Of a stretch of 64,000 nt of DNA, positions 4,142 to 25,300 are shown in pieces (position 1 is the stretch's first letter; each line of letters opens with the position of its first letter). Both the position numbers and the translations under genes were made by a program. The stretch comes from Paenibacillus sp. 19GGS1-52. Lineage in GTDB: Bacteria > Bacillota > Bacilli > Paenibacillales > Paenibacillaceae. The notes beneath the pieces were generated by a model that worked only from the letters and a program-made list of their open reading frames with translations, did not search any database and was not told the origin of the DNA. The stretch is taken from positions 4,960,001-5,024,000 of the forward strand of contig NZ_CP059724.1 of NCBI RefSeq assembly GCF_022369515.1, in the 5' to 3' direction.

Positions 4142-4164
4142 CCGGTTAGCTCCTTAACTTAAAT

Positions 4165-4956: not shown

Positions 4957-4957
4957 C

Positions 4958-7454: not shown

Positions 7455-7472
7455 TTCACACCCCCAGAGAAC

Positions 7473-7510: not shown

Positions 7511-7524
7511 ATTCCTTCTGCTAG

Positions 7525-7593
7525 TTACTGCTCATGCATAAGAGCAGCTGGAATTTTGATCTCAGTTGCCTTTGGTTTATTATACTTTTTCAT
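7525..7593 (-). CDS. 22-residue candidate precursor peptide
   Basis: This very short gene starts with ATG at 7593, has a near-consensus AAGGGGGTGA ribosome site seven bases upstream and stops with TAA at 7525-7527. Its ATG overlaps the stop of the HPr-kinase-like gene (ATGA). The peptide begins KKYNKP, resembling the Y-x-x-P or W-x-K-P start of RRE-bound leaders and of PqqA, and ends AALMHEQ. PqqA itself is 22-24 residues and is handled by a PqqD protein and a radical SAM enzyme, both encoded here. The only hydroxyl amino acids are Tyr4 and Thr10, and there is no Cys. The product is unknown; the strong ribosome site is the best evidence that it is a real gene. Confidence 0.7.
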   Translation of the reverse strand: MKKYNKPKATEIKIPAALMHEQ

Positions 7594-8633: not shown

Positions 8634-8658
8634 CTGATCCATCATCTCCTAAGAAATC

Positions 8659-9660
8659 CTACTTAATGTTGGCTCGAAACGCTTTGTAATCGGGAATGTG
8701 GTAACTCGGATAAGTAATTGATCCATCCTCCAACCCTCTTTTTACTCCAAAGGATTGAAGAAATTTGTCTAGCTTCTCATCGTAATTGGAATTTGCAATG
8801 TTGATGGTCGGAAAGCCTGCTGTGTAACAAGCTGCTAAATCGCCTCCGGGACTGATACGAAGAGATTTGCAGTTCTGCTTAACACAGAAATAACCTCTTG
8901 TATGGTGGTACACTATTGCAATAGGAGTTTTATAATTGTTTACTGTCCAATAATCACAAGCCCAATTATTACCTTTCACATTGTTGGCAGGCATAAGACT
9001 TCCGAGTTCCTTTTGCAGAAACTCTTCCAGCTCACGTTTGGAGACATGGTTGTCCAGAAAGAAGTCACCCGGCTGTTCGGACGTGGAGAATGGAAGTAGT
9101 TCCATTAAGCGCAGAATAATTTCATGTTCCTGACAAAACTCGATCATTGTTAATATTTCATTGAAGTTATACCTTCTCAGAACAACCATATTTATCTTTA
9201 TAGATTCAAAGACTGATTTACTTATAGCAATACCTCGGAGCACCTTTTCTAAATGATCCGTTTGGCTGATATTATGAAATATATCGGGGTTAATGGAGTC
9301 AACGCTTATGTTTACCCGCTTTACTCCAACTTCACTTAAATCCTCGGCGTATTTATACAGAAGTGAACCATTTGTTGTCAAATAATAATTAAGATGATGA
9401 CCGTTATTCTTGACCGTTCTTAACACTTCTACAAGTGAAGGTAACAGTAAAGGTTCACCACCCGTAATATGCACGTCTTTAATTCCCAGTTCGGCCGAAA
9501 TCGTTAGAATTTCAATTAAATCTTGAGAGGTTAAATCATTCTTTTGCCCACATTCTCCTTCAGGATTACAGTACACGCAGCGGTAATTACACTGCGGTGT
9601 AACCCCAATTCGTAATAGATAACCTATTCCCACTGCTAATTCCTCTGCACACTTTGCCAT
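8659..9660 (-). CDS. Radical SAM enzyme, MoaA-like, candidate peptide maturase
   Basis: This 333-residue protein has the [4Fe-4S]/SAM motif C24-x3-C28-x2-C31 (CNYRCVYC) and the SAM-binding GGEP at 67-70. A second cysteine set C259-x4-C264-x13-C278 matches the auxiliary cluster region of MoaA (there CX2CX13C) rather than a SPASM domain. It lacks the C-terminal Gly-Gly tail needed for MoaA function, and no molybdopterin gene is nearby in the operon. With a PqqD-like partner and a tiny peptide gene it is best read as a peptide-modifying enzyme. Its TTG/ATG region overlaps the phosphatase stop by one base. Confidence 0.85.
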   Translation of the reverse strand: MAKCAEELAVGIGYLLRIGVTPQCNYRCVYCNPEGECGQKNDLTSQDLIEILTISAELGIKDVHITGGEPLLLPSLVEVLRTVKNNGHHLNYYLTTNGSLLYKYAEDLSEVGVKRVNISVDSINPDIFHNISQTDHLEKVLRGIAISKSVFESIKINMVVLRRYNFNEILTMIEFCQEHEIILRLMELLPFSTSEQPGDFFLDNHVSKRELEEFLQKELGSLMPANNVKGNNWACDYWTVNNYKTPIAIVYHHTRGYFCVKQNCKSLRISPGGDLAACYTAGFPTINIANSNYDEKLDKFLQSFGVKRGLEDGSITYPSYHIPDYKAFRANIK

Positions 9661-10277
9661 TACAACTCGCTCCTCTTCATCACAAATCCTTGTTTATATT
9701 CCTTCTCGTGTATTCTGGAATAACAAATCTTATTCCCTTCTATGCAATAGATATATTCATTAGGTACGTCCATAGCCAAAACCTTATCTATATCCAGGTT
9801 ACAGAGCAGCTTAATTAGAATTTTGTTGATTGCTTTGTGTGCTACAATCACTGCGTTTTCCTTAATATAAAGTCTTGAAATCTGGTCGGTAAAATATTGC
9901 AGCCTTCCTTCCAAATCTTCGTAGTTTTCCCCGCCGGGATAACAGAACCTATAACGGGATAGCTTATCCGAATCTTTTTCACTTCTTCTTGAAAGTTCGG
10001 ATTTGTGAACTCCCTCTGCTGTACCACAGCATTTTTCCGTCAGACAATCTTCAAGTATGATAGGAATCTGGTGCCTACCCGAAATGAATTTCGCTGTATT
10101 ATAGGCTCTGCCAAGTGGACTGGAGAACAATGCATTCACCTTTATACCATAAAAGAAGTGTGACAGTAGTATTGCTTGTTGAATACCTTCTTTTGTTAAT
10201 TCAGAGTCCTTTCTCCCTTGAACAATATTTTGTGATGACCACCGCGTTTCTCCATGTCTTGCAATATAAATAGCCAA
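9660..10277 (-). CDS. Histidine phosphatase family protein (CobC/PhoE-like)
   Basis: This 205-residue phosphatase has R7-H8-G9-E10, the second arginine R57 in SSPLGRA, and the C-terminal catalytic H147 (IVAHKAINK). The branch resembles alpha-ribazole phosphatase/PhoE enzymes that act on small phosphate esters. It is the first gene of the peptide operon, starting with TTG after AAGGGGGT, and has its own strong promoter 62 bases upstream. Together with the HPr-kinase-like gene it suggests a phosphorylation-dephosphorylation step in the pathway; that is inference. Confidence 0.88.
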   Translation of the reverse strand: MAIYIARHGETRWSSQNIVQGRKDSELTKEGIQQAILLSHFFYGIKVNALFSSPLGRAYNTAKFISGRHQIPIILEDCLTEKCCGTAEGVHKSELSRRSEKDSDKLSRYRFCYPGGENYEDLEGRLQYFTDQISRLYIKENAVIVAHKAINKILIKLLCNLDIDKVLAMDVPNEYIYCIEGNKICYSRIHEKEYKQGFVMKRSEL

Positions 10278-10366: not shown

Positions 10367-10543
10367 TATATTTATTTGTATTTTTATGTAATAAAAAGTA
10401 AATAAAAGTCGAAAGTAAAGACCATTATGTGAACTGAATTTAGTTATATATTTGTGGAGCACGATATCAATGGCTTCTGTTACTAAAACACAAATAACAA
10501 GGCAACTTCTCACTCTTTTCTGATAGTTAATCTTATCCACAGC

Positions 10544-10580
10544 AAAAAGACTGTCCCAAATCTATAATAACTTGGGACAG
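10544..10580 (-). terminator. Rho-independent terminator of the first SLH gene
   Basis: A perfect nine-base stem CTGTCCCAA/TTGGGACAG (10551-10559 and 10572-10580) is followed on the minus strand by TCTTTTTG. It lies 36 bases past the stop of the SLH gene at 10617. Confidence 0.85.
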
Positions 10581-10616
10581 CCCCTGAGACCCTTTTTTCT
10601 AATACATGTTCCTAAT

Positions 10617-13496
10617 TCACTTGTTCAGTTGTGCCAATAATTTCAGCAGCACCGTCACAGCCTCAGCTCTTGTAGCAGAGTCTTGAGGGGCGAACTCGTT
10701 GTCCCCTTTTCCTTGCACCATCCCGGCTTGCTTCACGAAATCCACGCTGGCTTTCGCCCATGCTGGAATATCTTTGTCATCGGCGAAGCTTGTGGTCAGC
10801 TTGACTTCGGTAGACTCACCCAGCGCTTTGGCGAGGATGACGGCCATCTCGGCGCGTGTAATTTCTGCATTCGGACGGAAACCGCCGTCCTCATACCCTG
10901 TAATAATGCCTGCTCGCACCGCTTGTGCGATTGCCGTCTGCGCCCATGCTCCGATTTTTGCTGTATCTGTGAAGGTCAATTGAGCTCCTGCGTCTTGCGT
11001 TTTCAGCACTTTCATCAGCATCACTGCGAATTCCGCACGTGTCACCGTACGATTCGGCTGGAACGTTCCGTCTAGGTAACCCTTAACCATCCCAATGCTC
11101 AGCGCTTGTTTGATGCTTGCTTCTGCCCAATGTCCTGCGACATCGCTGAAGTTGATTTCCGTAGGTGTGTCTGTTACGGGCTCGTTTACTGGTAATCCCG
11201 TCGCTTTGTCTACACTAAGTACTGCATATTTCCCTAAATGATTGACCTCTATTAGGATGTGATTCCCTTCGATCTTGCCACCTGCTACTTCAACCCATGC
11301 TTTCCTCACTTCGTCATAGTAGAATACCGCTGCCTTCTGGTTGCTGTTCATGAGAGTTGGATCAAACGTAAAGTTCATTGTGACCGGTTTACTGAAGTCC
11401 TCCGCAAAGTTTTTCGTAATCTCGTACATAGGGCTGAGTAGGATCTCGTTATTCGCGAAAAGAATTTGAGAGTCCAATACTTTTTTGATCGTTAATATCA
11501 GCTCTTTGTTTATCGCTCCTACGGGAATAGAGATCTTAATAGCATCCTCGAAACTAACCTCGCCTGCTTGGTTTACAGGAAGCGTTAATGTGCCATTCGT
11601 GCTGGTAACGTTGCTGTTGCTTGGTGTTGTCGAAGTACTGCCAGTGCTAATAAGCTGTGTTGTTGGGAAAACGGCAGTCACAACACCCGAATTTGCTATG
11701 TTCGTCGTTGTTGCTCCAACTACACTGAAGAAATTAGCAGGCACTCCCGTTAATGTATATCCTTCCTTTGGAGTGATGGTAATCGTTGCAGTGTAGGCTG
11801 TTCCTTGGGCAAATAGTGTCGTCGTTGGCGACCAGCTAAGTGTTGCTGTGTATTCTGCTGAATACGTTACGGTAGTTACCGGCTTTGCTCCGGTTACTGG
11901 CGCTGTTACTCCAGCTATGACTCCTGTTGTGATAAGCGCTGCTGTTGCCGGGAATACCGCGGTTACAACTCCTGAATCCGCTTCATTCGTCGTTATTGCT
12001 CCAGCTACAGTGAAGGAGTTCGCAGGCACTCCTGTTAATGTATATCCTGCCTTTGGGGTAATTGTAATTGTCGCGGTGTACGCTGTTTCTGGGACAAATA
12101 ATGTCGCCGTTGGCGACCAGCTAACCGTTGCGGTATATTCTGCCGAATACGTTACGGCAGTTACTGGCGTTGCCCCAGTTATTGGCGCTGTAACTCCATA
12201 TATAGCTCCTGTTGGGATAGGTAAGATCTTGATATTCTTGGCATCTACATTCCGAATTTGTTCAGTAGACTCCTGTTGATTAGTTGTTTCTTTTACTCGA
12301 ACATAAATCATATCACCCAACTCGACAACAATATTGTCCACGCTTGTATCTGTAATCGACGTGTACGTACCTGTGTTTACTTTATACTCCATCCCACTCG
12401 TCACGCCGGTTAACTTTGTTGTTCCTGCATTCGTTCCTGGTGCCAAGGCTATAAACGCCCATAATTTGGGGTATTCGCCTGAAAGCATATACCAATCTTC
12501 GCTAAAGTTCCAATCACTAAATGTGTTTGGAACTTGCATTTCTTCGGTTGTTTTACCAGTGCCATTCCCTGTATCCGACTGCCCCGTTGTGCTGCTATCG
12601 TAGAAGCTGTAGTTAACTACGACGCCATAGCTGTTGTTATAACCAAGCAACCCACCCACATATCGATTTCCACTCACACTTCCTGTAGCGTAACTGTTGT
12701 TGATAATTCCGAGTCTGTCGTAACCAGACAAACCGCCCACAAATTGATCTCCACTCACACTTCCTGTGGCGTAACTGTTGCTGATAGTTCCTTCGTTTTC
12801 ACTAACCAAACCGCCCATATAGGCAAATCCACTCACACCTCCTGTGGCGTAACTTTTGCTGATGGTTCCGCCATTATAACCAACCAAGCCGCCCATATTT
12901 CTATACCCGCTCACACTTCCTGCGGCGTAACTGCTACTGATGGTTCCGCTGTTAAAGCCAACCAAGCCGCCCGCAGTACTATCTCCTTCCACACTTCCTG
13001 TGACATAACTGTTGCTGATAGTTCCGAGGTTAAAACCAACCAAGCCGCCTACGTATGTCCCACCTTTCACATCAATATCTTTCAGATTCATATTGGTCAT
13101 AATCCCCCCAATTGCTCCGAATAACCCGATGTAATATCCTTGCTTATCAATCTTCAGGTTTGTGATTGTATATCCATTGCCATTCATGTTCACCACAAAC
13201 AAATGAACGATATTTTGATTTGTTGTTCCTATCGGCTCCCAATTTGCATAACTACTCAAATCAATATCCGCTGTCAACTCAAAAAAAATATCCGCGTCTA
13301 CATGATTTCTAACTTCATTAAGCTGATCAGCCGTAGCGATCTGATAGGGATCGCTTGCTGTACCCGTTCCTCCAGCGAAGTCCGCCGTTGCAGCATAAGC
13401 CTTCCCTCCGCTTGGCCCAATAACTCCCGACATTCCACCCATTACCATTAATACCACCAGGAACATCGCCAATCCTTTTTTATACACCCTATACAT
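10617..13496 (-). CDS. SLH-domain surface protein with GLUG repeats (2 Ig-like repeats)
   Basis: This 959-residue secreted cell-surface protein has, in order: a signal peptide ending near AYA (residue 35); about seven GLUG repeats of the pattern GGLVGxNxGTISNSYATGSVSG (about 100-320); a linker domain; and two ~90-residue Ig-like repeats beginning GVTAPxTGAxPVT (about 420-590). A ZU5-like domain follows (VSFEDAIKISIPVGAI...), then three SLH domains (about 775-959) that bind pyruvylated wall polymer. GGAGGAAAAGC precedes the ATG. It is the last of three tandem paralogues. The role is probably adhesion or S-layer-associated surface function; the ligand is unknown. Confidence 0.92.
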   Translation of the reverse strand: MYRVYKKGLAMFLVVLMVMGGMSGVIGPSGGKAYAATADFAGGTGTASDPYQIATADQLNEVRNHVDADIFFELTADIDLSSYANWEPIGTTNQNIVHLFVVNMNGNGYTITNLKIDKQGYYIGLFGAIGGIMTNMNLKDIDVKGGTYVGGLVGFNLGTISNSYVTGSVEGDSTAGGLVGFNSGTISSSYAAGSVSGYRNMGGLVGYNGGTISKSYATGGVSGFAYMGGLVSENEGTISNSYATGSVSGDQFVGGLSGYDRLGIINNSYATGSVSGNRYVGGLLGYNNSYGVVVNYSFYDSSTTGQSDTGNGTGKTTEEMQVPNTFSDWNFSEDWYMLSGEYPKLWAFIALAPGTNAGTTKLTGVTSGMEYKVNTGTYTSITDTSVDNIVVELGDMIYVRVKETTNQQESTEQIRNVDAKNIKILPIPTGAIYGVTAPITGATPVTAVTYSAEYTATVSWSPTATLFVPETAYTATITITPKAGYTLTGVPANSFTVAGAITTNEADSGVVTAVFPATAALITTGVIAGVTAPVTGAKPVTTVTYSAEYTATLSWSPTTTLFAQGTAYTATITITPKEGYTLTGVPANFFSVVGATTTNIANSGVVTAVFPTTQLISTGSTSTTPSNSNVTSTNGTLTLPVNQAGEVSFEDAIKISIPVGAINKELILTIKKVLDSQILFANNEILLSPMYEITKNFAEDFSKPVTMNFTFDPTLMNSNQKAAVFYYDEVRKAWVEVAGGKIEGNHILIEVNHLGKYAVLSVDKATGLPVNEPVTDTPTEINFSDVAGHWAEASIKQALSIGMVKGYLDGTFQPNRTVTRAEFAVMLMKVLKTQDAGAQLTFTDTAKIGAWAQTAIAQAVRAGIITGYEDGGFRPNAEITRAEMAVILAKALGESTEVKLTTSFADDKDIPAWAKASVDFVKQAGMVQGKGDNEFAPQDSATRAEAVTVLLKLLAQLNK

Positions 13497-13775
13497 TGCT
13501 TTTCCTCCTCTATAACTACTTAACTTCGTATAAATTTCACGAGAAAATCTGAACTCCTATGCTCCATTGTGTTATTTATCATTGTGTCACCCTACTATAA
13601 GCCTTTCAGCGCAAAAAAGTACCTCCCCATTTGGGGAGGTACACGTAAAAATTTGCGATTCCTCAGATAATCTAACTAATTTTTGGAAATTGACTCGTCT
13701 TGGAGAGTACCCTGCTTGATGATTTATGAAATATACCCTATGCATTCCAGAATGATGTTCGCTATATTTTCTCTG
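13497..13775 (-). repeat. Spacer homologous to the one at 18099-18377
   Basis: This intergenic stretch holds the trailer of the middle SLH gene, a terminator hairpin and the leader of the first SLH gene. The leader shares TTATAGT-RRGGTG, ACACAATGG and GAGGAGGAAA elements with the leaders at 18099 and 21831. The trailers of the two spacers are also alike (GAATGATGTTCGCTATA). The duplicated unit therefore included flanking control DNA. Confidence 0.75.
13612..13642 (-). terminator. Terminator hairpin, SLH-array copy 1
   Basis: A perfect ten-base stem GTACCTCCCC/GGGGAGGTAC with loop ATTT is followed by six Ts on the minus strand. It sits 134 bases after the middle SLH gene and about 120 before the next start codon. 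It may end the upstream transcript or attenuate the downstream one. Confidence 0.85.
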
Positions 13776-16700
13776 TTAGTTACTCAGTTGTGCCAATATT
13801 TTCAGCAAAACCGTTACTGCTTCAGCTCTTGTAGCAGGGTCTTGAGGAGCAAACTCGTTATGGCCTTTGCCTTGCACAATACCGGCTTGCGTCACGAATT
13901 CCACACTGGATTTCGCCCATGCTGGAATATTCAAATCGTCAGAGAAGCGGAAGGTCAGCTTAACTTCGGTTGATTTACCCAGCGCTTTGGCGAGGATGAC
14001 TGCCATCTCGGCGCGTGTAATTTCCGCATTCGGACGGAAAGCGCCGTCCTCATAGCCTGTAATCATGCCTGCTTGCACCGCTTGCGCGATTGCTGTCTGC
14101 GCCCAAGCTCCAATTTTTGCTGTATCGGTGAAGGTCAATTGCGCTCCTGCGTCTTGCGTTTTCAGTACATTCATCAGCATCACCGCGAATTCCGCACGTG
14201 TCACCGTACGATTCGGCTGGAACGTTCCGTCTAGGTAACCTTTGACCATTCCAATGCTCACGGCTTGTTTGATGCTTGCTTCTGCCCAATGTCCTGCGAC
14301 ATCGCTGAAGTTAATTTCCGTGGGGACGTCTATTGTTGGCATCTCAGTCGCTTCGTCTACAGCCAATACCGCAAACTTCGTAAAGTGATTGCTATCTACA
14401 GTGATTTTATTACCGCTGATCTTGCCGCCAATCTCCACCCAAACCTTTTTCAATTCGTCATAATAGAATACGGACGCCTTTTGGTTGCTCTTTAGTTGGC
14501 TTGGATCAAACGTAAAGTTCAGCGTTACCGGTTTATTGAAGTTCTCCGAGAAGTTTTTCAGCATTTCGAATACAGGGCTGAGGAGAATCTCGTTATTCAT
14601 GAGAAGCCTCTGAGTGTCCAGTACCTTATCGATCGTTAATTTCAGTTCTTCATCTATCGCTCCTACGGGAATAGAGATCTTAACGGCATCCTCAAAGTTA
14701 ACTTCGCCTGATTGGTTTAGTGGAAGCGTTAATGTACCATTCGTGCTGGTAACCATGGGGTTACTTGGTGTTATTGAAGTACTGCCAGTGCCAGTGCCAG
14801 TGCCAGTACCAGTGCTAACAGGCTGTGTTGCCGGGAATACCGCCATCACAATGCCCGAATCGGCTGCATTCGTCGTTGTTGCTCCGGCAACGGTGAAGAA
14901 GTTTGCAGGCACTCCTGCTAATGTATGTCCTGCTCTTGGAGTGATTATTATTAATGCTGTATAGGCTGTTTCTCCAACAAATAATGTCGTCGTTGGCAAC
15001 CAAGTAAGTGTTGCTGTATATTCTGCCGAATAGGTTACCATAGTTACCGGTGTCGCCCCTGTTACTGGTGCCGTTACACCAGCTATCCCTGCAGTTGTGA
15101 TGGGAACTATTGTCACAGGAACTTCTGTGACCGGTGTTGCTTCTGTCGCCGGAAATCCTACGACTACAACACCGGAATCCGCTCCATTCGTCGTTGTTGC
15201 TCCGGCTACGGTGAAGAAATCGGCTGGCACTCCCGTTAAGGTATATCCTACTCTGGGAGTGATTATTATTAATGCGGTGTAGGCTGTTCCTCCAACAAAT
15301 AATGTCGTCGTTGGTAACCAACTAAGTGTTGCTGTATATTCCGCTGAATACGTTACCGTAGTTACCGGCGTTGCCCCTGTTACTGGCGCTGTTACACCAG
15401 CTATCCTGGCAGTTGCAATAGGGACGGTTATCACAGGGACTTCTGTGACCGGTGTTGCTTCTGTCGCCGGAAATTCTGCGGTAACAACACCGGAATTCAC
15501 TCCATTCTTCGTTGTTGCACCAGCTACAGTGAAGAAGTTTGCTGGCACTCCCGTTAAGGTATATCCTGCTCTGGGCGTGATTATTATTAATGCGGTGTAA
15601 GCTGTTCCACCCATAAATAATGTCGGCGTTGGCAACCAAGTCAGTGTGGCTGTATATTCAGCCGAATTCGTTACCATAGTTACTGGCGTTGCCCCTGTTA
15701 CTGGCACTGTTACACCACCTATGGCTCCTGTTGCGATAGGTAGCGCTGCCGTTGTCGGAAATTCCGCAATCACAACGCCTGAATCCGCATCATTCTTCGT
15801 TGTTGCTCCAGCGACAGTGAAGAAGTTTGCAGGCACACTCTTTAAGGTATATCCTGCTTTGGGGGTGAGGGTAATCGTTGCTGTATAAATTTCTACTCCT
15901 GCAAATTTTGTATCGACTGCAGGCGACCAGGTTATTGCGGCTGTATATTGTGCTGTATCTGCTATTGTCGTTACGGGCGTTGACCCTGCAATTGGCGCTG
16001 TCACACCAACTATGGCTCCTGTTGTAATTGGGATGGCTGCCGTGGCTGGGAATTTCGCGGTTATAACGCCTGAATCCGCATCATTCGTTGTCGTTGTTGA
16101 TCCGGCTACGGTGAAGGCGTCTGTAGGCACACCTATTAAGGTGTATCCCGCTTTGGGGCTGATGGTAATCGTTGCTGTATAGATTTCTGCTCCTGCAAAT
16201 GTTGCCTTTACTGCAGGCGACCAGGTTAGCGAGGCTGTATATTGTGCTGTATCTGCTATTGTCGTTACTGGAGCTACCCCTGCAATTGGCGCTGTCACAC
16301 CAACTATGGCTCCTGTTGCGATAGGGACCGCTGCCGTGGCTGGGAATTTTGCGGTTATAACGCCTGAATCCGCATCATTCTTCGTTATTGCTCCAGCCAC
16401 CGTGAAGGCGTCTGCAGGCACACCCGTTAAGGTATATCCTAATTTGGGGGTGATGGTAATAGTTGCTGTATAGATTTCTGCTCCTGCGAATTTCGCATCC
16501 ACTACAGGCGACCAGATTAGCGAGGCTGTATATTGTGCCGTGTCTGCTATTACAGCTACTGGCGTTTCCCCTGCTACCGGCGCTGTCACTCCAATAATGG
16601 CTCCTGTTGCGATAGGGAGCGCTGCCGTTGCCGGGAATTCCGCATATACCATGTTGGAATTCGCTCCATTCTTCGTTGTTGCTCCAGCGACGGTGAAGAA

Positions 16701-18098
16701 GTTTGCAGGCACACTTGTTAAGGTATATCCTGCTTTGGGAGTGATGGTAATCATTGCTGTATAGGCTACCGCTCTGGCAAAAATTGCATCTCCAGGGAAC
16801 CAGGTTAGCGAAGCTGTATATTGTTCTGTGTCTGTTATTGTAGATACTGGCGTTTCCCCGGCTACGGGTGCCGTCACTCCTTCTATGGATTTTATAGCTA
16901 TAGGTACTAAGGTTTTTGGGAAAATGGCTGTTATAACGCCTGAACCAGCTTCATTCGTTGTGATTGCTCCGTCTACGGTGAAGAAATTTTTAGGCACACC
17001 CTTTAATGTATGTACGGAGTCAGGCGTAATTATAATCGTTGCTATATATTCTGTTCCTCCATCAAATACTGTAGTCGTTGGCGACCAGCTAATGGTTGCT
17101 GTGTATTCTGCCGTAGCCTTTATTACGGATACTGGCGTATCGCCTGGTATTGGCGCTGATATGCCAGCTATCGCTGCTGCAATAGAGTTAATTGGAGTTT
17201 GAGTAGTATTATCGAACCCAACCAACCCACCCACTGAAGCTGTTCCACTTACACTTCCGGTGGCATAACTATTGCTGATGGTTCCGAAATCATCTTGAAA
17301 CCCAACCAATCCACCTACAAGTAAATCTCCACTCACACTTCCGGTGGCGTAACTATTACTGATGGTTCCAGAGTTATTACCGACCAATCCACCTAATGTT
17401 GCATCTCCACTCACACTTCCGGTGGCGTAACTGTTGTCGATGGTCCCATAATTAATACCAGCCAAACCTCCCGAATTATAAGGCTTATCACCATTCGGTT
17501 GCAGAATGCCATTCACAGTAACTGTGGCGTAGCTATTGCTGATGGTTCCACCCCCGTTGTTTAGAGACACCAACCCACCTGCCCCACTAGATCCACTCAC
17601 ATGTCCTGTGACATGGCTATTGCTAATGGTTCCATTGTTCATTCCTGCCAATCCGCCCACTGCTTGACCTTTAACCTCTACATCTTCCAATATCATATGA
17701 GAAACCTCAGCATACTGGTTTATTGCTCCGAACAATCCTGCAGCAACATATCCTGTACTTTCTAACTTCAGATTAGTGATTGTATACCCATTTCCATCCA
17801 TTCTCCCTTTAAATGGGAACCCAACAACATAACCTATCGGTTCCCAATTTGCGTAACTACTCAAATCAATATCCGCTGTCAACTTAAAATAAAGGCCCGC
17901 ACCTAAATAATCTCTAACCAAATCTAGCTGATCAGCGGTTGCGATCTGATAAGGATCGCCTGCTGCACCCGTTCCTCCAGCAAAGCCTCCCGCAGCATAA
18001 GCCGTCCCTCCACCAGATACTATCACTCCTGATATTCCACCCATTACCATTAACAACACCAGAATGATTGATATTCCTTTTTTAAACACTGTATTCAT
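13776..18098 (-). CDS. SLH-domain surface protein with GLUG repeats (8 Ig-like repeats)
   Basis: At 1440 residues this is the largest of the three paralogues. The signal peptide ends near AYA (residue 35). About six GLUG motifs follow (residues 95-300), then eight ~90-residue repeats beginning GVTAPVxGxTPVTxI and ending DSGVITAxFPATAA. After a Gly-Thr linker (GTGTGTGTG) come a ZU5-like domain and three SLH domains at about 1260-1440. The ATG has GAGGAAGTAGA upstream. Secretion and wall binding are well supported by the signal peptide and SLH domains. The long repeat stalk probably projects the GLUG region away from the cell; the ligand is not known. Confidence 0.92.
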   Translation of the reverse strand: MNTVFKKGISIILVLLMVMGGISGVIVSGGGTAYAAGGFAGGTGAAGDPYQIATADQLDLVRDYLGAGLYFKLTADIDLSSYANWEPIGYVVGFPFKGRMDGNGYTITNLKLESTGYVAAGLFGAINQYAEVSHMILEDVEVKGQAVGGLAGMNNGTISNSHVTGHVSGSSGAGGLVSLNNGGGTISNSYATVTVNGILQPNGDKPYNSGGLAGINYGTIDNSYATGSVSGDATLGGLVGNNSGTISNSYATGSVSGDLLVGGLVGFQDDFGTISNSYATGSVSGTASVGGLVGFDNTTQTPINSIAAAIAGISAPIPGDTPVSVIKATAEYTATISWSPTTTVFDGGTEYIATIIITPDSVHTLKGVPKNFFTVDGAITTNEAGSGVITAIFPKTLVPIAIKSIEGVTAPVAGETPVSTITDTEQYTASLTWFPGDAIFARAVAYTAMITITPKAGYTLTSVPANFFTVAGATTKNGANSNMVYAEFPATAALPIATGAIIGVTAPVAGETPVAVIADTAQYTASLIWSPVVDAKFAGAEIYTATITITPKLGYTLTGVPADAFTVAGAITKNDADSGVITAKFPATAAVPIATGAIVGVTAPIAGVAPVTTIADTAQYTASLTWSPAVKATFAGAEIYTATITISPKAGYTLIGVPTDAFTVAGSTTTTNDADSGVITAKFPATAAIPITTGAIVGVTAPIAGSTPVTTIADTAQYTAAITWSPAVDTKFAGVEIYTATITLTPKAGYTLKSVPANFFTVAGATTKNDADSGVVIAEFPTTAALPIATGAIGGVTVPVTGATPVTMVTNSAEYTATLTWLPTPTLFMGGTAYTALIIITPRAGYTLTGVPANFFTVAGATTKNGVNSGVVTAEFPATEATPVTEVPVITVPIATARIAGVTAPVTGATPVTTVTYSAEYTATLSWLPTTTLFVGGTAYTALIIITPRVGYTLTGVPADFFTVAGATTTNGADSGVVVVGFPATEATPVTEVPVTIVPITTAGIAGVTAPVTGATPVTMVTYSAEYTATLTWLPTTTLFVGETAYTALIIITPRAGHTLAGVPANFFTVAGATTTNAADSGIVMAVFPATQPVSTGTGTGTGTGSTSITPSNPMVTSTNGTLTLPLNQSGEVNFEDAVKISIPVGAIDEELKLTIDKVLDTQRLLMNNEILLSPVFEMLKNFSENFNKPVTLNFTFDPSQLKSNQKASVFYYDELKKVWVEIGGKISGNKITVDSNHFTKFAVLAVDEATEMPTIDVPTEINFSDVAGHWAEASIKQAVSIGMVKGYLDGTFQPNRTVTRAEFAVMLMNVLKTQDAGAQLTFTDTAKIGAWAQTAIAQAVQAGMITGYEDGAFRPNAEITRAEMAVILAKALGKSTEVKLTFRFSDDLNIPAWAKSSVEFVTQAGIVQGKGHNEFAPQDPATRAEAVTVLLKILAQLSN
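14783..14816 (-). repeat. Hexanucleotide microsatellite coding a Gly-Thr linker
   Basis: About five units of the six-base motif CAGTGC (plus strand, one unit varied) encode alternating Gly and Thr before the ZU5-like domain. The two paralogues have only one unit at the same place. Slippage would change linker length without a frameshift. Confidence 0.8.
14822..17190 (-). repeat. Eight tandem ~280-bp coding repeats
   Basis: These are successive units of the Ig-like domain, each ending in the sequence for FPAT or FPKT and starting with GVTAPV or a variant. The central units (with ADTAQYTASLTWSP) and the last three (with TYSAEYTATLTWLP) form two similarity groups. This suggests local amplification by unequal recombination. 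Confidence 0.85.
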
Positions 18099-18377
18099 TC
18101 TACTTCCTCCTCTAAAACTACTAAATACTGAATATATTCATATAAAAATCCTAATAACCCATTCCATTGTGTCATTCCTCATTGCACTCACCTCACTATA
18201 ACTCTATTCGCACAAAAAAATACCTCCCCATTTGGGGAGGTAAGGGTAAAAAATTTATGATTTCTAAGAAGATTTTACTATTTTTTGAAATCCGCTAGTC
18301 ATGGAGAATATTCTGCCTGATGATTTAATTCAATTCACCCTAACCATTCTTGAATGATGTTCGCTATAGTTCCTCTA
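18099..18377 (-). repeat. Spacer homologous to the one at 13497-13775
   Basis: This spacer contains the trailer of the third SLH gene, a terminator hairpin and the leader of the middle SLH gene. Its length (279 bases) equals that of the other spacer. A 26-codon frame beginning ATGACACAATGG overlaps the SLH start as ATGA, but the frame is not kept in all copies, so it is not called a gene. Confidence 0.7.
18214..18242 (-). terminator. Terminator hairpin, SLH-array copy 2
   Basis: A nine-base stem TACCTCCCC/GGGGAGGTA with seven Ts following on the minus strand. It is nearly identical to the hairpins at 13612 and 21947. Confidence 0.85.
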
Positions 18378-21300
18378 TCACTTGTTCAGTTGTGCCAATA
18401 ATTTCAAAAGTACCGTTACAGCCTCAGCTCTTGTAGCAGAGTCTTGCGGGGCGAACTCATTGTCCCCTTTTCCTCGCACTATTCCCTCTTGCTTCACGAA
18501 ATCCACACTGGATTTCGCCCACGCTGGAATATCTTTGTCATCGGCGAAGCTTGTGGTTAGCTTAACTTCGCTAGACTTACCCAGCGCTTTTGCGAGGATG
18601 ACTGCCATCTCGGCGCGTGTAATTTCTGCATTCGGACGGAGACCACCGTCCTCATAGCCTGTAATCATGCCAGCTTGCACCGCTTGCGCGATTGCTGTCT
18701 GCGCCCACGCTCCGATTGTTGCTGTATCTGTGAACGTTAGTTGTGTGCCTGCTCCTTGTGGCTTGAGCACATTCATCAGCATCACCGCGAATTCCGCACG
18801 GGTCACCGTATGATTCGGTTGGAACGTTCCGTCTTGGTAACCCTTGACCATTCCAATGCTCACGGCTTGCTTGATGCTTGCTTCTGCCCAATGTCCTGCG
18901 ACATCGCTGAAGTTGATTTCCGTAGATGTGTCCGTTACTGGCACTCTTACTGGCAATCCCGTCGCTTCGTCTACACTAAGTACTGCATATTTCCCTAAAT
19001 GATTGACCTCTACAATAATGCGATTCCCTTCGATCTTGCCACCTGCTACTTCAACCCACGCTTTCTTCACTTCGTCATAGTAGAATACCACTTCCTTTTG
19101 GTTACTTTTTACAAGGGTTGGATCAAAGGCAATGTTCAACGTAACCGGTTTACTGAAGTCCTCCGCAAAGTTTTTCGTAATCTCGTATACAGGGCTGAGC
19201 AGGATCTCTTTATTCGCCAAAAGAATCTGAGTATCCAGCACCTTGTGGATAGATAATATCAGTTCTTTGGCAACTGCTCCTGTGGGAATAGAGATCTTAA
19301 CGACATTCTCGAAGCTAACCTCGCCTGCTTGGTTTACCGGAAGTGTTAATGTACCATTCGTGCTGGTAACGATGCTGTTGCTTGGTGTTGTCGAAGTACC
19401 ACCAGTGCTAATAAGCTGTGTCGCCGGGAATACGGCGGTCACAACTCCTGAGTCCGCTGCATTCGTCGTTGTTGCTCCGGCTACACTGAAGAAATTAGCA
19501 GGCACTCCCGTCAATGTAAATCCTGCCTTTGGAGCGATTGTTATCGTTGCGGTGTAGGCTGTTCCTTGGACAAATATTGTCGTTGTTGGCGACCAGCTAA
19601 CCGTTGCGGTATATTCCGCCGAATACGTTACCGTCGTTACCGGTATTACTCCGATTACTGGTGCTGTCACTCCAGCTATCCCTGCTGTTGCGATGGGGAC
19701 GATTGTCACAGGTACTTCTGTGACAGGTATTGCTGCCGTCGCCGGGAATACGGCGGTCACTATGCCTGAACCCGCATCATTCGTTGTTGTTGCTCCGGCT
19801 ACGGTGAAGAAGTTGGCAGGCACCCCCGTTAAGGTGTACCCTGCTTTGGGGGTGATTGCAATTGTCGCAGTGTAAGCTGTTTCTGGGGCAAATAATGTCG
19901 TCGCTGGCGACCAGCTAACCGTTGCGGTGTATTCTGACGAATACGTTACGGCAGTTACTGGCGTTGCCCCGGCTATCGGTGTAGTCACTCCAGCTATGGC
20001 TCCTGTACTAATAGATACTGTGGCGGTCGCCGGGAATTCGGCGATCACAACGCCGGAATCCGCATTATTCGTTGTCTGTATTGCTCCAGCTACAGTGAAG
20101 GAGTTCGCAGGCACTCCTGTTAATGTATATCCTGCTTTGGGGGTGATTGTAATCTTGGCTGTATAGGCTACTGCTCCTGCAAAGGTTGCATCTACTGGGG
20201 ACCAGTCTATCGATGCTGTATATGTTGTATCCGCTATTGCCGTAACTGGCGTTGCCCCGGCTACCGGTACAGTCACTCCAGCTATGGTTCCTGTTGCAAT
20301 TAATTTCATGATATCCCCGGCATCTACATTCAACATTTGTTCATTGGAAGCCGGCTGAATTGTTGTTTCCTTTACTCGAATATAAATCCGATCCCCTACC
20401 TCGACAGCAATGTTGTCGACGCTTGTATCCACAATCGTCGTGTACGAGCCTGTGTTGACTTTATACTCCATCCCACTCATCACGCCGGTTAACTTCGTTG
20501 TTCCTGGAATGGCTGTTCCAACCGTCAACACCGCTGTTTGTGGTGCTGCTGCTGACTTAATATTTATTTTTTCGGCCGTGAATATTTTTGCGATTGAATT
20601 AGGTGATGCTACACGGACGAGGATCTCATCACCTGAATCCACAGTAATATTATCGACAGAACTACCCGAAATTGCCGTGTAATTGGCAGCGTCCATCGAA
20701 TACTCCATACCATTCGGAATATTATTCAACTTCGTTGTTCCCGCATTCGTTCCTGGTGTCAAGACTATAAACGCCCATAATTGAGGATATTGACCTGAAA
20801 ACATATACCAATCTTCACTGAAATTCCAATCACTAAATGTGGTTGGATTTTGCATTTCTGCGGTTGTTTTACCAGTGCCTTTATCTATATCCGACTGTAC
20901 TGTTGTGTCGCTATCATAGAAGCTGTGGTTGATGGTTGCATAGCCAGATTTGATACCAACCAAGCCGCCCACATATTGATTTCCATTCACTTTCCCTGTG
21001 GCGTAACTGTTGCTGATGCTTGTAAAATAATCGAGTATACCAACCAAACCGCCCACATATTGATTTCCATTCACACTTCCGGTGGCGTAACTGTTGCTGA
21101 TACTACATGGAATATTATTTATCATAGTCCTACCAACTAAGCCGCCCACGGTGTTATATCCTTTCACAATTTCCGTGGTGTAACTGTTGCTGATATTTCC
21201 AACGTTAATGCCAGCTAAGCCGCCCACATTGTCACCTCCACTCACATTTCCGGTGGCATAACTATTACTGATAGTTCCAGGGTTATCTCCCACCAAGCCG

Positions 21301-21830
21301 CCCACACCGTCACCTCCACTCACACTTCCGGTGGCGGAACTATTACTGATGGTTCCTTCGTTAATTCCCACTAAGCCACCCACACTGGATCCGCCTTCCA
21401 CCATAATATCTTCCAGAATTACATTGGAAATTTTCCCTATATTCGCTCCGAACAATCCGCTACCACCTCCTGCTTGGTTTACAATCATCAAATTTGTGAT
21501 TTTAAATCCATTGCCGTCCATGTTCCCATAGAACCTTAAATTAAAGTTGTATGAGTCATATGTTCCTATCGGCTCCCAATTCGCATAACTACTCAAATCA
21601 ATATCCGCTGTCAACTCAAAATAAAGCCCCGCCTCTAAATGATTCCTAACCTCATTCAACTGATCCGCCGTTGCAATCTGGTAGGGATCACTTGCTGAAC
21701 CATCTCCTCCAGCGAAGCCTCCCGCAGCATGAGCCGTCCCTCCATTAGGTGCAACTACCCCCGATACCACACCCATTACGATTAATATCACCAGGAAGAT
21801 CGATATCCCTTTTTTATACACTCTATGCAT
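18378..21830 (-). CDS. SLH-domain surface protein with GLUG repeats (3 Ig-like repeats)
   Basis: This 1150-residue secreted protein has a signal peptide ending near AHA (residue 35), about eight GLUG motifs, and two small domains beginning LTPGTNAGTTKL and LTVGTAIPGTTKL. Three ~90-residue Ig-like repeats, a ZU5-like domain and three C-terminal SLH domains complete it. The start at 21830 is used because AGGAGGAAATAG precedes it; a 26-residue N-terminal extension would put the signal peptide in the wrong place. It is the first of the three SLH genes in transcription order and follows the MalT-like regulator, which may control it. Confidence 0.92.
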   Translation of the reverse strand: MHRVYKKGISIFLVILIVMGVVSGVVAPNGGTAHAAGGFAGGDGSASDPYQIATADQLNEVRNHLEAGLYFELTADIDLSSYANWEPIGTYDSYNFNLRFYGNMDGNGFKITNLMIVNQAGGGSGLFGANIGKISNVILEDIMVEGGSSVGGLVGINEGTISNSSATGSVSGGDGVGGLVGDNPGTISNSYATGNVSGGDNVGGLAGINVGNISNSYTTEIVKGYNTVGGLVGRTMINNIPCSISNSYATGSVNGNQYVGGLVGILDYFTSISNSYATGKVNGNQYVGGLVGIKSGYATINHSFYDSDTTVQSDIDKGTGKTTAEMQNPTTFSDWNFSEDWYMFSGQYPQLWAFIVLTPGTNAGTTKLNNIPNGMEYSMDAANYTAISGSSVDNITVDSGDEILVRVASPNSIAKIFTAEKINIKSAAAPQTAVLTVGTAIPGTTKLTGVMSGMEYKVNTGSYTTIVDTSVDNIAVEVGDRIYIRVKETTIQPASNEQMLNVDAGDIMKLIATGTIAGVTVPVAGATPVTAIADTTYTASIDWSPVDATFAGAVAYTAKITITPKAGYTLTGVPANSFTVAGAIQTTNNADSGVVIAEFPATATVSISTGAIAGVTTPIAGATPVTAVTYSSEYTATVSWSPATTLFAPETAYTATIAITPKAGYTLTGVPANFFTVAGATTTNDAGSGIVTAVFPATAAIPVTEVPVTIVPIATAGIAGVTAPVIGVIPVTTVTYSAEYTATVSWSPTTTIFVQGTAYTATITIAPKAGFTLTGVPANFFSVAGATTTNAADSGVVTAVFPATQLISTGGTSTTPSNSIVTSTNGTLTLPVNQAGEVSFENVVKISIPTGAVAKELILSIHKVLDTQILLANKEILLSPVYEITKNFAEDFSKPVTLNIAFDPTLVKSNQKEVVFYYDEVKKAWVEVAGGKIEGNRIIVEVNHLGKYAVLSVDEATGLPVRVPVTDTSTEINFSDVAGHWAEASIKQAVSIGMVKGYQDGTFQPNHTVTRAEFAVMLMNVLKPQGAGTQLTFTDTATIGAWAQTAIAQAVQAGMITGYEDGGLRPNAEITRAEMAVILAKALGKSSEVKLTTSFADDKDIPAWAKSSVDFVKQEGIVRGKGDNEFAPQDSATRAEAVTVLLKLLAQLNK

Positions 21831-21946
21831 TCTATTTCCTCCTCCATCACTACTTAACTTCGTATAATTTTCATGATAATTTCCAAACTGTAAGCTCCAC
21901 TGTGTCATTTCTCATTGCATCCACCCCACTATAAGCCTTTTCGCGC

Positions 21947-21975
21947 AAAAAAATACCTCCCCATTTGGGGAGGTA
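21947..21975 (-). terminator. Terminator hairpin after the MalT-like regulator
   Basis: The same TACCTCCCC/GGGGAGGTA stem and T-run as in the SLH spacers, here 15 bases after the regulator stop. This is probably the ancestral location, later copied with the SLH gene leader. Confidence 0.88.
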
Positions 21976-21989
21976 CGCATAAATATTTA

Positions 21990-24560
21990 TTAGTCCAAAA
22001 TCATTAATTCTTTGGCACGTTGCAGGGCTTGTACCCGATTGTTCGCTCCAAGCTTTCTGTACACATTCCGAATATGGAACTTTACGGTTTCACCTGTGAT
22101 GTTTAGATTTGACGCAATCTCCTTATTCGTCAATCCTCCTGCAATCAACAGTAGAACCTTCGTTTCCTGATCTGTCAGTATTTCTTTACGAGACTGTTCG
22201 TCTTGTGACACTTCCTGGATCATGAGCTGCATAGCTTGAAGCAGTTGCTTTACATAATTAGAAGAAACAAGGGGTGCTTCCCTCAATTCACTACCCTGCT
22301 GCCTCTTTCCATAAACCGATAGCAGTTCTGCCATCACAGGGCCTTCATCTAAAAAGCTGCGGATGTACCCCTCTGGCTCTGCCAAATGCAGAACCTTCTC
22401 TAACTGATGGAGCGCAGCCTCCGTTTGACCCGAGCGCTGCAGCGTTATACTTTGTAGAATGTTTACCTGAATACGATCCCGGAGACGATCTTCCTTGTCA
22501 AATAAAGAATTCAATCGTTCCAATAGGTACAACGCTTCATTCATACGTTCAGACGCTACTAGAACTCTAGCCAAAGTTAGATACTCAGCTACACGACTCA
22601 GTGATACCTCATCCGTATGCGCCAGACCGCATCTTTGCAACCAATCCATAGCCTCTTGAAGCGATCCTTGCCGCAGAGACAGACAAGCTTGTTCCGCTTC
22701 GATTCTGAGCATAAATAATTCGTTATCCGGAGAGTCAATCTGCAATTTCAATTGGACGAGCAGCTCTGATGCCTGAATTGGATTTCCTTTGGCTTGCTGA
22801 ATCCGTGAAGCGCTAATGGAAATTTGCATCATAATCCTCGCAAAAGGCCGCATATCCTTACGTCCAAGAACCATAGCAGTATACGACTCCGCCTCTTCCA
22901 ACTGATTCCACTCGTACAATAACTTACTGTAGGAAGCACACAAGAATCCGAGAAAAGGATATTGCTGCTTGTTGCGCCACACTGTAATCCATTTCAACAG
23001 GAACACGTCCGCTGCATGAAGATCGTTGATATGTGCCAATAGATCATCAGAAGAATCATACCCTTGATATCTATTGCGCCCCACCGTTTGAAAAAAACTG
23101 CCTTCCGGCATATACCGTTCTACTAGCGCGAAGTATTCTGACGTTCGTTCCAAATCTTTTTGAAGATAAGAGGTAATCGCTTGAAAAAAGTAGATATTGC
23201 CCATAGCCTGCTTCCATTCCACATCAGTTACTCTCTTCTCCAATGCTTGAAACCGGATCGTAGCTTGTTCCACTCTTTGGAAAGCTGGTTTCCATTCACC
23301 AACGCCCAGTAAGACGGATATGTAAAACAGTTCGATCATGGGCTTCTCCGCAAAGGAGTTTTCCGGTAAAGCAGAGACCCAGCGGATTAATACAACACTT
23401 TTCGTTTGCACTAAATTATGTAAATTTCTCTCAATCAACCGAACAGCATCATGCACCTGTTTACCCTCTAAATAATGTTCCACCGCTTCAATGTCCAACC
23501 CTTGATTCTCTAACCCAAGCGCCGCATTAACATGCACCTGCACCCAGCGATCCGGGTCTGTTCTGAATAATTGCTGTTGTAGAAAATCAGACAGTAAATG
23601 ATGATATCTATACCAGTTCCTATGATCATCTAGGGGGACAATAAATAAGTTTATTTGCTCTAATCTTTCCAACTGGGCTTGACCGTTGCGTTGACCGGTT
23701 ACGGCCTGGCACAACGAAGAGTTCATACGGCTTAAAATAGACGTTTCCAATAAAAAAGTACGCGTCTGCTCCGATTGATGACGAAACACTTCCTGTAATA
23801 AATAATCGGAGATATGATGCTGATGACCACTGAACTGCTGAATGGTCTCGGCAATATCACCACTACGTTTCAAAGAGATCGCCGCCAGCTGCAGGCCGCT
23901 GATCCAACCTTCAGTTTGCTGGAACAGCTGTGTCACTTGCTCTTGGGTTAATCCTAAATCGGTCGTCTCCCGAAAAAAGACAAGTCCCTCGTCTAGTTGA
24001 AACCGCAAATCCTGCATCATGATTTGATGTAATTCACCTTTGGCTAGAAGCCTGGCGGTTGGTATGGCTAGATCTGTACGACTGGCAATATATAGATGAA
24101 TATGAGGAGGCAAATGTTCAAGTAAATGGATCATAGACTGCTGGATAGTGGGAAGTTCAATGACATGATAATCATCGAGAATAATCACCAGTTCGCGGGG
24201 GAAGCGATTCAACTCATTCAAGAGTTCTGTGATTGCCGGCTCCACAGACGGTGAAGGTCCTAATTCAAGAAGAGAATGGACCGCCAAGCCAAAACCCGGC
24301 TCTCTCTCCTGAATGGAAGCTGTGACATAACCCCAGAACTGAATCCAATCATTATCCTGCTTATCCAGCGAAACCCATGCCACAAGGCTGTTACATTGTT
24401 TCACCCATTCACTTAACACCGTAGTTTTGCCATAGCCAGCCTGCGCAGAAACTAACGTCAACTTGGCCTCCATCCCCTCATTCAGCTTAAGAATCAACCT
24501 CGGACGGGATACCAAAGATTTACGCACATGAGGGATGTGAAGTTTTGTACTTACAATCAA
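21990..24560 (-). CDS. MalT-like LuxR-family transcriptional activator (LAL/STAND)
   Basis: This large cytosolic regulator of about 856 residues has an N-terminal NTPase with Walker A AQAGYGKTT and Walker B LVIILDDYH. A long helical TPR-like sensor follows, then a C-terminal LuxR helix-turn-helix (LTDQETKVLLLIAGGLTNKE through NVYRKLGANN). STAND activators oligomerise on ATP and inducer binding. The TTG at 24560 is chosen because GGAGGGG lies seven bases upstream, while the ATG at 24575 has no ribosome site; this start gives the usual IVSTKLHIP N-terminus. It precedes the SLH array and is a candidate regulator of it. The inducer is unknown. Confidence 0.9.
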   Translation of the reverse strand: MIVSTKLHIPHVRKSLVSRPRLILKLNEGMEAKLTLVSAQAGYGKTTVLSEWVKQCNSLVAWVSLDKQDNDWIQFWGYVTASIQEREPGFGLAVHSLLELGPSPSVEPAITELLNELNRFPRELVIILDDYHVIELPTIQQSMIHLLEHLPPHIHLYIASRTDLAIPTARLLAKGELHQIMMQDLRFQLDEGLVFFRETTDLGLTQEQVTQLFQQTEGWISGLQLAAISLKRSGDIAETIQQFSGHQHHISDYLLQEVFRHQSEQTRTFLLETSILSRMNSSLCQAVTGQRNGQAQLERLEQINLFIVPLDDHRNWYRYHHLLSDFLQQQLFRTDPDRWVQVHVNAALGLENQGLDIEAVEHYLEGKQVHDAVRLIERNLHNLVQTKSVVLIRWVSALPENSFAEKPMIELFYISVLLGVGEWKPAFQRVEQATIRFQALEKRVTDVEWKQAMGNIYFFQAITSYLQKDLERTSEYFALVERYMPEGSFFQTVGRNRYQGYDSSDDLLAHINDLHAADVFLLKWITVWRNKQQYPFLGFLCASYSKLLYEWNQLEEAESYTAMVLGRKDMRPFARIMMQISISASRIQQAKGNPIQASELLVQLKLQIDSPDNELFMLRIEAEQACLSLRQGSLQEAMDWLQRCGLAHTDEVSLSRVAEYLTLARVLVASERMNEALYLLERLNSLFDKEDRLRDRIQVNILQSITLQRSGQTEAALHQLEKVLHLAEPEGYIRSFLDEGPVMAELLSVYGKRQQGSELREAPLVSSNYVKQLLQAMQLMIQEVSQDEQSRKEILTDQETKVLLLIAGGLTNKEIASNLNITGETVKFHIRNVYRKLGANNRVQALQRAKELMILD

Positions 24561-25300
24561 GGAATACCCCTCCATATATAAATTGAATTGAATTTATGAA
24601 AGTCATGCTGGAATTCGTTTTACATCCGCATTGCGTCTTTTAACTCAAATTATATCAGATATGAAAGCCCTATACACTGAGTGGTAAGGCAGCCCCTGTG
24701 GAGGATTCACAATAGATTCTTTCAAAAGGAACTAATGGTCACTGAAAATTATTGCTCATCTCCCTAAATTCCGAGGAAGACCGGAACCAATCGCTACTTT
24801 AAGTTCCCGGGCAAACTCTAATCACTCTACGGATTACCAATCTGCCCTTCATGCGTGTCCTAGTTTATAAAGCGTACTCTGAATATAAAGAAGGTGGCAT
24901 CTGGGGAGGCATTCCCAATTACCACCAATTCTATCATCCAGCTTGCTTTACAGCTGTATTCGGCATCACGTATGCTGACTTTTTCTTCATCTTTATAGCA
25001 CACTGCAAATCGGTCGTATTACCATTCCTTGCAATACATCCAGCGCCAGCTCTTCGGTAATTTTATCCGTCATACAGATTTCTACGCTGTTTGTAGATAC
25101 TGCAAAAGTACATTAATTCTCTATTAAGAGTCTAGCATTAAAGCAAGAACAAGAATATTTAACTTGGGCCGATGTTGTCACTTTTATTTATTCTATTTGG
25201 TGGACTGGCTTGCCAGCTGTTTAATTAGTGATTGATCAATAATTAGATGTTTTACAGCTAACTAGCATTCTTGTACTGAAGTGTTCCTCTGCGGAAGAAT
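24561..25300. other. Gene-poor stretch with possible IS3-type remnant
   Basis: No frame with a ribosome site and coding character was found over about 740 bases. On the minus strand around 25000-25090 a short stretch reads MTDKITEELALDVLQ. This resembles the integrase-core segment of IS3-family transposases (MSDKxTEDLALxAL), but it is cut by stops on both sides. The 69-codon plus-strand frame at 24851 has no recognisable features. Confidence 0.35.

Follow-up and report, generated by a model that had tools for sequence, protein, structure and literature searches.

A tandem array of SLH-anchored GLUG proteins with stalks of 2, 8 and 3 repeats in Paenibacillus sp. 19GGS1-52, each gene preceded by a predicted operator-promoter

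Do neighbouring surface-protein genes that differ in the number of their stalk repeats form a switch, or a family that is expressed together and changes slowly? This question is raised by a locus of Paenibacillus sp. 19GGS1-52, whose genome is a single contig of 6.83 Mb (NZ_CP059724.1). The window, that is the whole stretch of DNA analysed here, is a 64-kb part of it (positions 4,960,001 to 5,024,000), and all coordinates below refer to the window. It carries three genes, G1 (10617-13496, 959 amino acids (aa)), G2 (13776-18098, 1440 aa) and G3 (18378-21830, 1150 aa), which lie in tandem on the minus strand and have intact open reading frames. The frame of G3 opens at 21908; the internal ATG at 21830, preceded by GGAGGAGG, is the likely start and agrees with the end coordinate of the original prediction. 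The original prediction described three tandem paralogues with GLUG and SLH domains and 2, 8 and 3 copies of a ~90-residue repeat, and took them in principle for a surface-variation system. Our analysis makes it likely that these genes are a regulated family, amplified in tandem, whose products are rods anchored to the wall; their length would change slowly, with some exchange between the genes.

The described anatomy was borne out by Pfam, which found GLUG (PF07581) and three SLH (PF00395) stretches in each protein, and by a motif search and a profile hidden Markov model, which agreed on 2, 8 and 3 repeats with units of 87-89 aa. Across the 13 units, 29 of 89 alignment columns are invariant, a conservation far beyond chance. 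The stalks span 11658-12203 in G1 (two repeats), 14826-17171 in G2 (eight) and 19419-20285 in G3 (three), all on the minus strand. Each protein begins with a signal peptide, recognized by eye, and a GLUG head, and ends with a post domain, which gives a weak ZU5-like match, and the three SLH domains. The domain order had been proposed to be shared throughout; this holds for head, repeats and SLH domains, but G2 lacks the cap that follows the head in G1 and G3, and the GTTKL module before the stalk occurs once in G1, not at all in G2 and twice in G3. Pairs of the three genes share 69-76% of their nucleotides (nt) over the N-terminal part; the figure is 76-87% for the post domain and 86-90% for the SLH region. 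Within the G2 stalk, r2-r5 (type A, 76-84% nt identity among themselves) and r6-r8 (type B, 82-88%) are the two similarity groups previously noticed, but r1 stands apart from both (62-71% to the other seven units). By the same typing G3r1 is type A, and G3r2, G3r3, G1r1 and G1r2 are type B. For one repeat, structure prediction confidently gave a small all-beta domain (predicted local distance difference test (pLDDT) 94.3). The model of the G1 head is a solenoid-like run of short strands (pLDDT 89.8, 11 sequences) and is nearest to 3n6z (E 2.8e-10) and to IgA1 proteases. Parts of the IgA1 protease GLUG domains (3n6z, 6xja) thus resemble the predicted head; the array proteins differ from them in having no HEXXH motif. 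This motif was not found in any window protein, and by that measure their sequences give no sign of a protease.

Directly upstream of G3 lies the gene of a MalT-like LuxR regulator (21990-24575, minus strand). It matches TPR_MalT (PF17874, E 2.8e-41) and the GerE helix-turn-helix (HTH; PF00196, E 3.1e-19), both above the cut-off. Its N-terminus matches PF13401 below the cut-off (E 3.6e-5) and contains a Walker A-like P-loop, AGYGKTT, seen by eye. Each of G1, G2 and G3 is preceded by the palindrome CTCCCCnnnnGGGGAG, followed 23 nt downstream by TATAGT, and so are the four genes of a related array in genome G037. In the window the sites read ACCTCCCC-AAAT-GGGGAGGT, then a T-run, then TATAGT at a fixed distance. 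The predicted operator-promoters occupy, on the minus strand, 21928-21976 before G3 (palindrome 21953-21976, TATAGT 21928-21933), 18195-18242 before G2 (18221-18242 and 18195-18200) and 13594-13642 before G1 (13619-13642 and 13594-13599). The 16-base palindrome has three copies in the host genome, and the element with at most one mismatch has three sites. With up to three mismatches, seven rows were obtained, comprising the three known sites, two of the same palindromes on the other strand and two new weak places; the reversed control gave four. One of the new places keeps the bare core CTCCCC-GGGGAG and has no TATAGT. According to this search, the bare core therefore exists elsewhere in the host genome and the full element does not. 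These sequences point to one predicted operator-promoter per paralogue, probably read by the adjacent regulator. With one predicted promoter and operator repeated in front of each paralogue, the array is probably co-expressed rather than switched.

The element was then followed through other genomes. The genome sets hold one genome per species, and the comparison is thus one of species. Among 100 genomes of the same genus, a scan for core plus TATAGT with at most one mismatch found 14 sites in nine genomes, and the reversed pattern gave none. All 14 lie at an orthologue of the regulator or inside its array. The scan of the family yielded 22 sites in 16 of 394 genomes (control 0), of which eight sites in seven genomes of other genera served as a fresh test of the element. 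Four of these are exact. In G159 (contig 14) and G329, a MalT-like regulator stands on one side of the site and an SLH gene on the other. The G318 site is flanked by a response regulator, whose HTH is 73% identical, and by a gene with SLH domains and three 87-aa repeats, and that of G123 follows a response regulator with a 79% identical HTH and precedes a histidine kinase gene. The remaining four have one mismatch: in G321 and G359 they stand behind a MalT-like regulator, in G159 (contig 15) at the start of an SLH gene with no regulator nearby, and in G355 with neither kind of gene directly beside the site.

Searched from the other side, close orthologues of the regulator (E 1e-250 or better) were found at 16 places in 14 of the 100 genomes of the genus. 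The HTH is kept (63% identical or more) at 13 of these loci, and the element with at most one mismatch lies within 100 nt of the stop codon in eight of the 13 and at 1.4 kb in one. Three loci, namely L096 (G015 contig 10), G058 and G056, have neither this HTH nor the element. L096 carries Trans_reg_C and BTAD in place of the HTH, G058 resembles it by length and alignment (the domain scan covered L096), and G056 ends early. Nature also provides a swap. The element stands directly downstream of two response regulators (L121:3196-6945 and L118:8014-8604) that lack a MalT-like body and whose HTH is 73-79% identical, and reciprocally two MalT-like bodies without that HTH lack the element though an SLH gene follows. 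As far as sequences can tell, the element goes with the GerE HTH rather than with the sensor body. The HTH-coding part of the gene is its 3' end, beside the element, and physical linkage accounts in part for this association. The copies before G1 and G2 and those inside the G037 array are free of this objection, though they were possibly copied along with their genes. In two regulators, those of L091 and L092, the HTH reads ETVKSHIK in place of ETVKFHIK and the palindrome is altered to TCCCCC-GGGGGA, so that protein and site possibly co-vary. ETVKSHIK is also present in a response regulator of L118, which has no site within 1.5 kb.

The comparison with MalT was made after the element had been discovered. 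From the end of GGGGAGGTA to TATAGT there are 20 nt; adding the hexamer and ~7 nt places the end of the arm ~33 nt from the presumed start. In the available part of the Actinoplanes study, the distance from the end of the MalT palindrome to the start site is 34.4 +/- 1.0 bases, and the palindrome overlaps the -35 region at a fixed start distance, as the predicted site of the array would (PMC7567727). The E. coli MalT box cited there is GGGGA(T/G)GAGG, which the array half-site GGGGAGG resembles, and the array regulator shares the MalT-like TPR and GerE domains with the regulators of these regulons. By this analogy the geometry supports reading the element as a predicted operator. The MalT regulons differ in that the targets here are surface stalk proteins, and in that the site of the array is predicted from sequence.

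Several points weigh against a regulated family of rods read in this way. Where the palindrome directly follows a regulator it lies no more than 60 nt from the stop codon, and the linkage to the HTH could be adjacency to the 3' end. A T-run follows it in 24 of 25 tabulated sites, as in an intrinsic terminator. A promoter scan gave no more sigma-70-like sites than shuffled sequences and did not list TATAGT. At the HTH-keeping loci not yet mentioned, G094, G035 (second copy, G035b) and G005 have altered palindromes, with unrelated genes following in the latter two, and in G042 the spacing is one base shorter and no SLH gene lies downstream. An exact copy in G015 (L088, ~6108) stands 1.4 kb downstream of the regulator with no surface gene directly behind it, and the HTH-bearing response regulator G123b has no site. 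Outside the genus, the sites of G123, G321 and G359 precede non-SLH genes, and the G355 site has neither regulator nor SLH gene directly beside it. Lastly, the fold of the stalk repeat has no convincing solved relative. Foldseek with the repeat model returned no PDB match at E 0.001 or better, and further structure comparison reached at best Z 5.2, which may reflect a mere common beta arrangement. A search of the repeat sequence against solved chains gave two weak Contactin-5 rows only (E 0.06 and 0.2), and in the window proteins the repeat had no convincing Pfam or NCBIfam match.

The first of these points could be taken together to mean that the palindrome is simply the intrinsic terminator of the regulator and of each upstream paralogue. 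The array would then be a duplicated family whose members have this terminator in common, and TATAGT would be either meaningless or a constitutive promoter. The scan does label the palindrome a terminator, and the GC-rich stem, the T-run and the position close to the regulator stop would all fit. However, the last gene, G1, is not followed by a copy; a different terminator-like hairpin, read by eye, stands 3' of it (10540-10582, minus strand). Ten of the 25 sites lack pairing at the seventh position of the stem and 22 have an intact inner CTCCCC/GGGGAG, although most sites were picked with the core in the pattern. TATAGT or a one-base variant occurs at 23 nt in 14 of the 17 sites that were found via regulators or genes, the eight sites chosen by a pattern that fixes the spacing being left out of this count, and the G359 site keeps the spacing without a T-run. 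Some sites also lie away from any regulator 3' end (host G1 and G2, three in G037, G159 contig 15 and G015), and the element follows the HTH rather than the body. A terminator and nothing else is therefore an unlikely account of the palindrome; a terminator role or a dual role alongside that of an operator is possible.

How fast do the stalks change? The stalk repeat was found at E 1e-8 or better in five of the 100 genomes of the genus, the host included. The most informative relative is G037, a genome matching Paenibacillus monticola LC-T2, which has four tandem genes in syntenic position behind a regulator 88% identical to that of the window. In transcription order its genes D, C, B and A have 2, 7, 3 and 10 repeats. 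Counterparts were assigned by order and by GTTKL modules, giving G3-D (two modules each), G2-C (none) and G1-B (one); A likewise has none. The host and G037 counts are 2/3 for G1/B, 8/7 for G2/C and 3/2 for G3/D, so that all three pairs are one unit apart. In G2 and C, r1-r5 correspond one-to-one (96, 92, 93, 88 and 93% identity), and the extra unit falls in the type-B block, where repeat plus a 19-aa spacer recurs. The other pairs match less cleanly: the closest units are B r2 for G1r1 (90%), B r3 for G1r2 (85%) and D r2 for G3r3 (92%), and the remaining units have no clear partner. A second length-variable segment of G2 is the in-frame linker of TG dipeptides after its stalk (~14783-14815), with five units against 17 in C, and by a rough motif count the GLUG turns of the head also vary in number between genes or counterparts. 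Two further relatives have a single gene, with nine units in G027 and 10 in G059. Repeats r2-r7 of the latter are 87-97% identical and share exact tracts of up to 125 bp, as recent tandem duplication would leave them. The G035 gene is interrupted by contig ends that fall within the repeats. The proposed unequal recombination and adjustable stalk length are thus largely supported; the repeat numbers of different species are not identical.

The same data bear on a more dynamic alternative, a fast phase-variable system of the periscope type, in which repeat number would shift within populations by homologous recombination and be selected for surface change. The one-unit difference in every counterpart pair, the recent expansion in G059 and the contig ends inside the G035 repeats are what it would lead one to expect. 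Yet the G2 units are only 62-88% identical at the nucleotide level, and r1-r5 have kept a one-to-one match between species. The longest exact tracts are 41 bp in the G2 stalk and 57 bp in the whole array, and frequent recombination at present is for this reason not favoured. According to the available part of the Periscope paper, the most extreme variation goes with the highest repeat identity (PMC8201768). We consider such a system very unlikely here. The term surface-variation system, if meant as rapid switching, exceeds the data, which show divergent repeats, five units matched one-to-one between species and one predicted promoter copy per paralogue.

The array nevertheless shares much with the Periscope Proteins Sgo_0707, SasG and Rib, as far as the available parts of the sources describe them (PMC8201768, PMC9704523): a distal N-terminal domain, a variable-copy stalk of tandem beta domains and C-terminal wall attachment. 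The array proteins have a signal-peptide-like N-terminus, seen by eye, with the GLUG head, and attach to the wall through C-terminal SLH domains. They depart from that class in lacking highly identical repeats, a degree of identity approached only in G059; their length variation is seen between species, the anchor is of the SLH type, and tandem paralogues stand beside a dedicated regulator. They likewise resemble fibrillar adhesins, which combine a stalk, a distal domain and a surface anchor, SLH being among the anchor types listed in the available part of PMC8286594. A stalk of tandem domains (2, 8 and 3 repeats) and a known anchor are both present. The difference is that Pfam found GLUG and no recognized adhesive domain in the array proteins; 'glug' occurs 0 times in the main text of that paper.

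Evidence for exchange between the paralogues comes from a 57-bp tract that is identical in G1r1 (11994-12050) and G3r1 (20079-20135), both on the minus strand. The two repeats belong to different types and agree at 139 of 208 variable sites, of which 42 consecutive ones are identical; none of 200,000 permutations gave so long a run, although the test treats columns as interchangeable and uneven rates could inflate the result, a reservation that counts against the reading. Screening of 309 within-genome repeat pairs, with 400 permutations for most and the lowest taken to 3000, left G1r1/G3r1 as the only pair to reach the Bonferroni limit; the next had 4/3000. Among the 35 repeats of both genomes, only G1r1 and G3r1 are identical or within five differences over the tract. 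With the caveat on columns, these sequences count as direct evidence of a conversion-like exchange between G1 and G3, such as the original prediction had led one to look for.

The SLH region gives a mixed picture. A drop in identity between G2 and C, from 95% in the head and 93% in the post domain to 88% in the SLH region, was first read as conversion of the SLH part from a paralogue. This reading was rejected. Five window genes compared with G037 set the background synonymous divergence (dS) at 0.20-0.43, by which the dS of the SLH part (0.38) is ordinary and that of head and post domain (0.14-0.18) is on the low side. The approximately unbiased (AU) test likewise does not reject an unexchanged SLH history, with G2 and its counterpart in a common clade (p 0.143; p 0.391 for the last 77 codons), which also speaks against exchange. 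With G1 as third row, orthologue-only to paralogue-only site counts are 89:8 in the post domain and 21:28 in the SLH part, and recombination near the post/SLH border of G2 is plausible from these counts, with no direction claimed. Longest-run permutations on post domain plus SLH (21 pairs, 2000 permutations) gave none below 0.05/21; the lowest counts were 6 (W_G2/M_D), 7 (W_G2/M_C), 9 (W_G1/M_B) and 12 (M_B/M_D).

Does stalk length matter at all? The locus could reflect ordinary birth-and-death evolution of S-layer-like proteins, with stalk length devoid of functional meaning and repeat numbers drifting neutrally. Change looks slow here, and SLH-bearing places are very numerous in the host genome, where 60 matches to G3 were found, most of them in its SLH part. 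What speaks against this is the genes found behind the regulator. A large surface gene, recognized by SLH, a GLUG-type head or a post domain, lies directly downstream at 11 of the 16 regulator places: the window, G037, G027, G059, G035 (cut by a contig end), G078, G057, G094, G002 (cut by a contig end), G015 contig 10 and G058. GLUG calls in these neighbourhoods rest on an N-terminal profile, Pfam having been used for few proteins. Different genes follow at the other five (G015 contig 12, G042, G035 second copy, G005 and G056), and G042 has an SLH fragment on the upstream side. The stalk itself belongs to the 87-aa family, to a cadherin-like family (PF12733; G078 by Pfam, G057 by eye) or to Flg_new (PF09479; G094 by Pfam, G002 by eye). 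That three unrelated families take this position behind regulators of one kind suggests that a stalk as such is kept. The cadherin-like proteins of G078 and G057 (L087, L089) have 1732 and 1891 aa, by length apparently about two repeat units apart, and stalk length may vary with this unrelated repeat too. The heads also argue against drift. Between counterparts, nonsynonymous divergence (dN) in the GLUG part of the head is raised in G1 (0.25) and G3 (0.34); cap, post domain and SLH have 0.06-0.11, the signal peptides 0.20 and 0.29, and the G2 head is conserved (0.02-0.04). The GLUG heads of G1 and G3 are thus, tentatively, the aligned segments that differ most in amino-acid sequence, since GLUG repeats may have been aligned in the wrong register. 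Taken with these findings, neutral drift of the stalks is a rather doubtful explanation.

The surroundings of the array were inspected as well. SLH-anchored surface proteins need a CsaB-type wall-polymer pyruvyl transferase, and the host has two genes of the corresponding family PF04230, which also matches eight of 14 control genomes, E. coli included. No plasmid record matches 80% or more of G3, and partial matches occur in 12 records. Between the array and an aldo/keto reductase gene lies a co-directional cluster (3326-10277) encoding two ABC-2 permeases, an ABC ATPase, a CPBP-type protease, a 351-aa protein (HPr kinase-like by eye), a radical SAM protein and a histidine phosphatase. It looks like an inserted biosynthetic cluster. 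None of its genes was matched in the 40 kb around the G037 array, and ~4.2 kb beyond that array two genes are 96-97% identical to the window genes that stand beyond the cluster.

We propose the following course for a regulated family of wall-anchored rods. Each protein would hold the cell wall by its three SLH domains and carry, above a ZU5-like post domain, a stalk of predicted all-beta repeats and a predicted GLUG beta-solenoid head; an adhesive or ligand-binding function is conceivable. The MalT-like regulator would sense a signal, bind the palindrome, whose centre lies ~43 bp upstream of each predicted transcription start, and so turn on all paralogues together. Each duplication would have copied a gene together with its promoter. 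Stalks would afterwards have gained or lost single units of ~95-106 residues, each a repeat with its spacer, by unequal recombination, and paralogues would have exchanged short tracts. The outcome would be a ladder of stalks, 2, 8 and 3 here and 10, 3, 7 and 2 in G037, with different heads at different heights.

More broadly, and as a tentative proposal, the GerE HTH together with CTCCCCnnnnGGGGAG-N23-TATAGT may form a portable switch that runs surface stalk genes in several genera of the family under different sensor bodies, MalT-like or two-component. Stalk families (87-aa repeat, cadherin-like, InlB-B-like) may have been exchanged behind this switch, and the promoter-gene unit amplified here into a co-expressed array with heads at graded heights. 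The ingredients are individually known; what appears to be new is how they are combined, each gene having been copied along with its operator-promoter, which the HTH makes it possible to trace across genera. Literature searches, with most subscription papers outside their reach, found no paper that pairs 'GLUG' with 'SLH domain' or 'S-layer homology', and among the matches listed for LuxR, S-layer homology, Paenibacillus and MalT none dealt with this pairing, which is no proof of absence. If true, surface rods of Paenibacillus-type bacteria would have a defined pair of regulator and operator, and the loci with 1, 1, 3 and 4 genes and 2 to 10 units would offer a natural series for testing whether stalk length has a function. 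A periscope-like anatomy that changes slowly between species would also separate the statement that length can change from the statement that length switches.

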